DNA of 64,000 nt from Procambarus clarkii (taxonomy: Eukaryota; Arthropoda; Malacostraca; Decapoda; Cambaridae), in contig NC_091193.1 of NCBI RefSeq assembly GCF_040958095.1, forward strand, positions 31,502,346 through 31,566,345, written 5' to 3'. The notes beneath the pieces were generated by a model, which worked only from the letters and a program-made list of their open reading frames with translations, had not been told where the DNA came from and ran no database searches. Shown in pieces: positions 48,005 to 57,147 of this stretch (positions within the stretch are counted from its first letter, which is position 1; the number at the start of each line of letters is the position of its first letter). The position numbers and the translations under genes are program-made.

Positions 48005-48968
48005 CTAGTATATTTTGGTAGCAGTCTTTCCTGTAGACATATATTATTAAATATGACCGAAAAAGTAAGATTAATAATTCTAACACGAATTTTCTCAATC
48101 TTTCGTACATTACGCTTCACTGTTGGAGGTAAATCAAAAATCACTTCTCCAAAATTCATTTTTATTTCTAGTCTGACGCGACACGGGCGCGTTTCGTAAA
48201 ACTTATTACATTTTCAAAGACTTCACAAATACACAACTGATTAGAACTTACATCTCTCTGATATTATATCTACATTTCAGTGAGGTGGGAAGGGTGATGT
48301 GGCATTAACACAAGACAGAACCGGAGGGGATATTAATAGGGTATTAAAAGTATCAACACAAGACAGAACAGAAACAATGGGTATTGAATAGAAGTGTTTG
48401 TAGAAAGCCTATTGGTCCATATTTCTTGATGCTTCTATATTGGAGCGGAGTCTTGAGGTGGGTAGAATATAGTTGTGCAATAATTGGCTGTTGATTGCTG
48501 GTGTTGACTTCTTGATGTGTAGTGCCTCGCAAACGTCAAGCCGCCTGCTATCGCTGTATCTATCGATGATTTCTGTGTTGTTTACTAGGATTTCTCTGGC
48601 GATGGTTTGGTTATGGGAAGAGATTATATGTTCCTTAATGGAGCCCTGTGGCTTATGCATCGTTAAACGCCTAGAAAGAGATGTTGTTGTCTTGCCTATA
48701 TACTGGGTTTTTTGGAGCTTACAGTCCCCAAGTGGGCATTTGAAGGCATAGACGACGTTAGTCTCTTTTAAAGCGTTCTGTTTTGTGTCTGGAGAGTTTC
48801 TCATGAGTAGGCTGGCCGTTTTTCTGGTTTTATAGTAAATCGTCAGTTGTATCCTCTGATTTTTGTCTGTAGGGATAACGTTTCTATTAACAATATCTTT
48901 CAGGACCCTTTCCTCCGTTTTATGAGCTGTGGAAAAGAAGTTCCTGTAAAATAGTCTAATAGGGGGTA
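48005..48968 (-). pseudogene. PLE 3' part, copy 1 of the tandem block
   Basis: Minus-strand frame 48409-48804 encodes the GIY-YIG domain ([27 protein letters not shown]) and C-terminus; 48805-48968 continues into the region upstream of it. The 3' region ends at (TA)n. The 5' side stops at 48968, where 23 bases of inverted PLE sequence (48969-48991) lead into the SINE array. Confidence 0.88.
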
Positions 48969-48991
48969 ACTAACACAACACCTATACCCCC
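48969..48991. repeat. inverted 23-base PLE segment at a junction
   Basis: The plus strand after GGGGGTA reads 'actaacacaacacctatacc' plus CCC, which is PLE sequence in the opposite orientation to the adjoining PLE (compare 19879-19905). With the preceding GGGGGTA it forms a small foldback. The same junction is present at 52714-52736. Confidence 0.85.
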
Positions 48992-55597: not shown

Positions 55598-56931
55598 TGA
55601 TTAAATATGACCGAAAAAGTAAGATTAATAATTCTAACACGAATTTTCTCAATCTTTCGTACATTACGCTTCACTGTTGGAGGTAAATCAAAAATCACTT
55701 CTCCAAAATTCATTTTTATTTCTAGTCTGACGCGACACGGGCGCGTTTAGTAAAACTTATTACATTTTCAAAGACTTCACAAATACACAACTGATTAGAA
55801 CTTACGTATCTCTGATTTTATATCTACATTTGAGTGAGGTGGGAGGGGTGATGTGGCATTAACACAAGACAGAACAAGAGGGGATATTAATAGGGTATTA
55901 AAAGTATCAACACAAGACAGAACAGAAACAATGGGTATTGAATAGAAGTGTTTGTAGAAAGCCTATTGGTCCATATTTCTTGATGCTTCTATATTGGAGC
56001 GGAGTCTTGAGGTGGGTAGAATATAGTTGTGCAATAATTGGCTGTTGATTGCTGGTGTTGACTTCTTGATATGTAGTGCCTCGCAAACGTCAAGCCGCCT
56101 GCTATCGCTGTATCTATCGATGATTTCTGTGTTGTTTACTAGGATTTCTCTGGCGATGGTTTGGTTATGGGAAGAGATTATATGTTCCTTAATGGAGCCC
56201 TGTTGCTTATGCATCGTTAAACGCCTAGAAAGAGATGTTGTTGTCTTGCCTATATACTGGGTTTTTTGGAGCTTACAGTCCCCAAGTGGGCATTTGAAGG
56301 CATAGACGACGTTAGTCTCTTTTAAAGCGTTCTGTTTTGTGTCTGGAGAGTTTCTCATGAGTAGGCTGGCCGTTTTTCTGGTTTTATTGTAAATCGTCAG
56401 TTGTATCCTCTGATTTTTGTCTGTAGGGATAACGTTTCTATTAACAATATCTTTCAGGACCCTTTCCTCCGTTTTATGAGCTGTGGAAAAGAAGTTCCTG
56501 TAAAATAGTCTAATAGGGGGTATAGGTGTTTTGTTAGTTGTCTCTTCAGAGGTTGCATGGCTTTTCACTTTCCTTCTTATGATGTCTTCGATGAAACCAT
56601 TGGAGAAGCCGTTATTGACTAGGACCTGCCTTACCCTACAGAGTTCTTCGTCGACTTGCTTCCATTCTGAGCTGTGGCTGAGAGCACGGTCGACGTATGC
56701 GTTAACAACACTCCTCTTGTACCTGTCAGGGCAGTCGCTGTTGGCATTTAGGCACATTCCTATGTTTGTTTCCTTAGTGTAGACTGCAGTGTGGAAACCT
56801 CCGCCCTTTTCCATGACTGTTACATCTAGAAAAGGCAGCTTCCCATCCTTTTCCGTCTCGTAAGTGAAACGCAGCACGGAACTCTGCTCAAATGCCTCCT
56901 TCAGCTCCTGCAGATGTCTGACATCAGGTAC
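55598..56931 (-). CDS. PLE copy 3, 3' half: RT C-terminus and GIY-YIG endonuclease
   Basis: In-frame PLE coding runs from the Gypsy insertion at 56931 down to the stop at 55963, with 3' untranslated sequence to 55598. Content: [32 protein letters not shown], a region with [16 protein letters not shown], then the endonuclease [12 protein letters not shown] / [19 protein letters not shown] and the C-terminus [16 protein letters not shown]. PLEs copy themselves with a telomerase-related RT and cut DNA with the GIY-YIG domain. Its 5' half is at 62443-63398, beyond an inserted Gypsy element. No stop or frameshift was seen, so the PLE was probably intact until split. Confidence 0.88.
56927..56931 (+). 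repeat. target site duplication GGTAC (left)
   Basis: GGTAC immediately precedes the 5' LTR at 56932 and recurs at 62443-62447 after the 3' LTR. Confidence 0.9.
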
Positions 56932-57147
56932 TGTCATGTTCACAGAAAATGGTACCATCCGTTTTCTATGTGCGGCGGCTGGGACGCCAGAGAGAGATTG
57001 GAGGTAAACAAAAGAGCGTACAGGACGCCCACCAAGCTTGGTAGCTACTAGTCGTGTAATCATATTAAGTATTAAAGTCAGTAACCAAGTCATGACTTTA
57101 CATCAACCCTACAACCAAGACTTCCTCAGTAACACACAAACACCACA
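56932..57147 (+). repeat. 5' LTR of the intact Gypsy
   Basis: TGTCATGTTCACAG...AACACCACA, 216 bp. Confidence 0.95.

Follow-up and report, generated by a model that had tools for sequence, protein, structure and literature searches.

A hybrid Penelope-like element between duplicated tandem arrays of Procambarus clarkii, best explained by unequal recombination

Introduction

Two adjacent blocks, each made of a partial Penelope-like element (PLE) and a tandem array, are followed by a third PLE in the genome of Procambarus clarkii. The locus raises the question of how the second block arose and whether the middle PLE keeps a trace of the exchange that produced it. Unequal crossing-over, or non-allelic homologous recombination, between transposable elements in direct repeat has long been known. 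Its textbook product has flanking direct repeats, a duplicated middle part and a middle repeat that is a hybrid with one switch. The locus described here shares these features, with the difference that the repeats are PLEs and the cargo is a tandem array. In the consulted part of a study on the Drosophila virilis phylad, inversions are described as arising prevalently by ectopic recombination between elements (PMC6278893); that case concerns inversions and other elements, while the present one is a tandem duplication via PLEs. A shrimp study, in its consulted part, considers an origin of satellite DNA by unequal crossing-over of elements plausible (PMC3124438). No paper on this assembly was found within a partial coverage of the literature, and no claim is made that the locus or the PLE case is unpublished.

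Organization of the locus

The window, meaning the whole stretch of 64,000 nucleotides that was analysed, corresponds to bases 31502346-31566345 of scaffold C44 (38.8 Mb) in a 4.03 Gb assembly of 2308 pieces. It has three partial PLEs, P1, P2 and P3, all on the minus strand (Table 1). P1 and P2 directly adjoin head-to-tail arrays of a 260-base unit (10.5 units each), and each array finishes in an (AT)n tract, of 64 and 128 bases respectively, that touches the next PLE. The stretch of inverted PLE found at both PLE-array junctions comes perhaps from a fold-back during reverse transcription. P3 is split by a Gypsy-like LTR retrotransposon (56932-62442) with a long open frame and GGTAC at both sides. 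The LTRs of this element differ at 2 of 215 compared sites, and the same two differences are present in a homologous copy of the locus, B, described below. At 63271-64000 the P3 PLE stands head to head with a second PLE, forming an inverted repeat around 63.4 kb.

Table 1. Features of the duplicated locus, in window coordinates.
Feature	Coordinates	Strand	Description
PLE copy P1	48005..48968	-	3' part, GIY-YIG end; GIY-YIG-like match from the homologous part of P3
P1 ends	48005-48045; 48968		3' end at 48005-48045; 5' side cut at 48968
P1-array junction	48962..48990	.	~20 bases of inverted PLE between GGGGG and CCCCC
Array 1	48991..51727	+	10.5 units of the 260-base repeat, looks tRNA-like (SINE-like)
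(AT)32	51726..51789	.	separates array 1 from P2
PLE copy P2 (hybrid)	51790..52713	-	downstream type up to 52262, upstream type from 52395
Exchange interval	52262..52395	.	inside P2, 133 bases
P2-array 2 junction	52707..52735	.	same as P1-array junction
Array 2	52736..55472	+	11 units (10 whole, 1 partial), in register with array 1
(AT)64	55471..55598	.	separates array 2 from P3
PLE copy P3	55599..56931, resumes at 62443 past the LTR element	-	downstream parent type

The middle PLE is a hybrid with a single switch

The repetition of the two blocks at an offset of 3,745 bases, proposed in a sequence-only reading of this DNA, holds exactly from 48046/51791 through both arrays. The arrays differ at 2 of 2737 positions, 53636 and 54118, one private change falling in each array, and the duplicated parts altogether at 2 of 3682 sites (0.054%). 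From P2 to P3 the offset is 3809, the extra 64 bases corresponding to the longer (AT)n (128 vs 64 bases).

The same reading held that the middle PLE matches the downstream one at at least five sites up to 52262. Nine SNPs were counted at which P2 agrees with P3 and not with P1 (51940, 51997, 51999, 52008, 52023, 52036, 52067, 52068 and 52262, in P2 coordinates), to which the left boundary adds. The proposed match to the upstream PLE from 52395, with its array junction, was likewise recovered: P2 agrees with P1 and not with P3 at 52395, at 52579 and at the junction from 52713. P2 and P3 show no difference over the 604 bases of 51791-52394, and P2 and P1 none over the 341 bases of 52395-52735. 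Comparison of the three copies revealed no site at which P1 and P3 agree against P2. Interleaved diagnostic sites would have spoken against a crossover; the sites of the two types are not interleaved, and the copy changes type only once.

Comparison with a homologous copy of the locus

A search with the head of the array found a homologue, B, 120 kb to the left of block 1 on the same scaffold; the window's own copy is termed A. B lies in a piece that is delimited by two runs of 500 N (window coordinates -79159 to -30500). Homology of this piece to the window extends from 40.3 kb to the right, and over its first 220 bases the piece resembles, by eye, the unit found at ~38 kb. Over 40.4-45.7 and 55.6-67.6 kb, 17343 sites were aligned between the two copies, and 30 of them differ (0.17%). 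This count leaves out the sub-windows from 67.6 to 74.9 kb, where divergence is 0.2% to 2.6%. To the right of 74.9 kb the BLAST identities between A and B are 92-98.6%.

B has a single block. Its first PLE, B1, has the 3' end and the array junction of P1, it is followed by an array of 6.5 units, and the next PLE, B3, has the left boundary of P3. B can thus be used as an outside control of the parental types. The markers that split these types in both A and B are seven SNPs and the left boundary on the left side (P2=P3=B3), and one SNP and the junction on the right side (P2=P1=B1), so that the right side of the switch is marked only by one SNP (52395) and one structural junction. Among the five copies, 51997 and 52067 set P1 apart from all others and 52579 does so for P3; one private base was counted in each of B1 and B3. 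All 10 markers are accounted for by a switch between 52262 and 52395; with any other switch point at least one is left over. By order alone, a single switch in this direction is one of the 45 orderings of 8+2 markers.

Three other PLE copies of the window, Q37 (37214-37900), Q22 (22137-21710) and Q20 (20434-19880), served as outgroups. With their help, two of the left markers (51940 and 52262) are derived in P2, P3 and B3 and four in P1 and B1, one having no outgroup letter; on the right side, 52395 has a derived base common to P1, P2 and B1. At 51997 Q37 and Q22 carry the base of P1, B1 has the downstream base, and the first PLE of B may be the copy that changed. A repeat mutation or a small conversion is the only account that we can offer for this base, and the parental types are imperfectly kept in B.

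The exact 161-base string spanning the hybrid occurs at one place in the 4.03 Gb assembly, at P2. The corresponding P1 string occurs at four places (P1, B1 and two on scaffold C29) and the P3 string at ten (P3, B3 and eight others). The occurrence of the hybrid string at P2 only rules out, for this assembly, that the hybrid is an ordinary PLE variant. A 101-base probe of the PLE-array junction, taken from the P2 copy, gave 44 matches; all 35 candidates were scored and the full match is found at three places, namely blocks 1, 2 and B. The junction therefore seems to be of one origin. The two P1-type strings of C29, at 23391300 and 23429655, are 38 kb apart in the same orientation.

A first flank probe placed A and B as the closest pair among 40 scored of 3959 candidates. 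With a second probe (40 scored of 4506 candidates) a copy D, 724 kb to the right, is nearer to the window than B. More than two copies exist, and B, which may be an allele or a recent copy, can therefore not simply be called the other allele.

Origin of the duplication

Non-allelic homologous recombination between P1 and P3 within 52262-52395, the origin put forward by the sequence-only reading, is probably the best explanation of the locus; that it was a single crossover and that the animal carries both blocks is deduced from the assembled letters. The ancestral locus would have had the order P1-array-P3, two partial PLEs in direct repeat, ~1% apart, around one array. In one chromosome lineage, P1 of one chromatid would have paired out of register with P3 of another, either sister or homologue, and a crossover inside the PLE, between 52262 and 52395, would have yielded a gain product with a second array and a middle PLE whose left part derives from P3 and right part from P1. 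The reciprocal product, which was not seen, would be without the array. One unequal exchange of this kind accounts jointly for the duplicated array, the hybrid, its direction and the breakpoint. The position of the hybrid in the middle and the single-block homologue B support it as well.

An artefact of assembly might give the same picture if reads of at least two haplotypes or paralogues had been joined in tandem through the PLE repeat, since the join itself would then also lie within a PLE. The surroundings of the locus are indeed redundant: B, C and D are homologous pieces that belong to the same scaffold and lie behind N gaps, and around 97-101 kb there are four copies, 0.5-1.5% apart by mismatches. 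In the one visible second version, B, the array counts 6.5 units and four variants common to both A blocks are absent, so that such an error would need a further near-identical version. There is also no N within the window (1-64000) or in the adjoining 40 kb on its right. An assembly error is considered unlikely. The different unit number and the four missing variants also rule out that block 2 is the block of B.

Two other routes, which likewise draw on PLE homology, start from true DNA rearrangements, and the trace that either would leave is almost that of an unequal exchange. The array could have been duplicated in tandem in another way, for instance through the (AT)n tracts to the left of P1 and P3, the left half of P2 being then converted by P3. 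Since (AT)n tracts border three further large differences between A and B, rearrangements at such tracts may be frequent in this region, but this scenario requires two events and a conversion tract that includes the array-(AT)n-PLE boundary and stops once within 52262-52395, which makes it improbable. An exchange in the (AT)n tracts as sole event is ruled out by reasoning, since P2 would then be entirely of P1 type. Recombination of P1 with P3 in one chromatid might instead have released a circle of array and hybrid PLE that was reinserted by homologous recombination. By reasoning, such a circle would carry the P3 type on the left and the P1 type on the right, and its return into P1 or P3 would give the observed order. 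The end sequence is the same as for unequal crossing-over, but two steps are invoked where one suffices, and this route is held to be the most improbable of those weighed.

Unequal recombination between P1 and P3 remains the preferred reading, and the process at the locus is a clear case of a textbook mechanism. The record of the event is unusually complete, with both parents, the hybrid, a 133-base breakpoint interval and a single-block homologue found on one scaffold. The locus shows how satellite-like arrays of a large crustacean genome can grow by way of partial retroelements.

Array units and timing of the duplication

Arrays 1 and 2 correspond unit by unit. Of the seven units of B, four can be paired by shared variants with A units 2, 6, 8 and 9, and the other three by position with units 1, 7 and 11. 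Four variants present in both A arrays do not occur in their B counterparts; unit 2 has two of them and units 8 and 11 have one each. They are also absent from the other units and therefore look derived in A. The comparison of units suggests that A and B had already split when the duplication took place. The simplest order of events would be the A/B split, the four changes, the duplication and then the two changes that distinguish the arrays, an order which could be blurred by unit-to-unit exchange. Divergence between the blocks (0.054%) and between A and B (0.17%) agrees in direction, without reaching significance (Fisher p 0.105). B itself may have lost units.

Identity of the PLE and of the 260-base unit

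The two halves of P3 around the LTR element have GIY-YIG-like and RT-like parts in the same direction, as in Penelope-like elements; P1 and P2 differ from these in being only 3' fragments. The RT part, beyond the LTR element, matches PF00078 with E 4.1e-6 and 27.1 bits, below the curated cut-off of 29.6, and the GIY-YIG part matches PF01541 with E 0.002 and 18.8 bits, also below its curated cut-off (22.6). A search with the GIY-YIG part retrieved 108 relatives, many of them unnamed; wherever a relative is named with its organism, it is a protein of Procambarus clarkii. The best relative, P0001, is one of these and shows 74% identity along 61% of the query. Some of the 108 carry PF00078 or PF01541. 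No solved structure matched the RT part.

A hammerhead ribozyme motif is found in many Penelope-like elements and is not required of all. Rfam gave no match at gathering score in the window and no hammerhead-type match up to E 1 in 47900-52000. The ten weak matches of this latter search, all below gathering scores, overlap (AT)n tracts without exception.

The 260-base unit has motifs, picked out by eye, which we take to be A-box-like and B-box-like. In these it resembles a tRNA-derived SINE, from which it differs by the lack of an ARAGORN match (the tRNA search of the window gave none) or a match at Rfam gathering score. Its arrangement in head-to-tail arrays and, on scaffold C16, where a pair of arrays is found, also head to head is more like that of satellite DNA than of a tRNA-derived SINE. 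The unit also fills the 3.3 kb fetched on C62 and on C12, with ~12.5 units each.

Neighbouring differences and redundancy of the scaffold

Large differences between A and B were scanned in 38-48 kb, aside from the block, whole array units, single bases and (AT)n lengths. At 38270-40254 A has an array of a 279-base unit (7.1 copies at 100%), also tRNA-like in appearance, between two (AT)n tracts, and B only (AT)n. At 45751-48004 A has five MITE-like units with long inverted ends and (AT)n between them, B having counterparts of the third and fourth only. The five units are 90-96% alike and so are not fresh copies of each other. The differences in the 279-base array and in the MITE-like units begin and end in (AT)n; they may have arisen by gain in A or by loss in B. 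It is possible, though rather doubtful, that the duplication is one of several recent copy-number changes in an (AT)n hub, perhaps still segregating. If true, whole tandem arrays and small elements would land or be exchanged at the (AT)n tracts.

Pieces B and C (within -79159..-5000), A (the window) and D (800835 onward) of C44 are separated by N runs and overlap in homology, either as a segmental duplication or as unpurged haplotypes. The run that ends just before the window has exactly 5000 N (-4999..0), while the other runs in the fetched flanks have 500 N.
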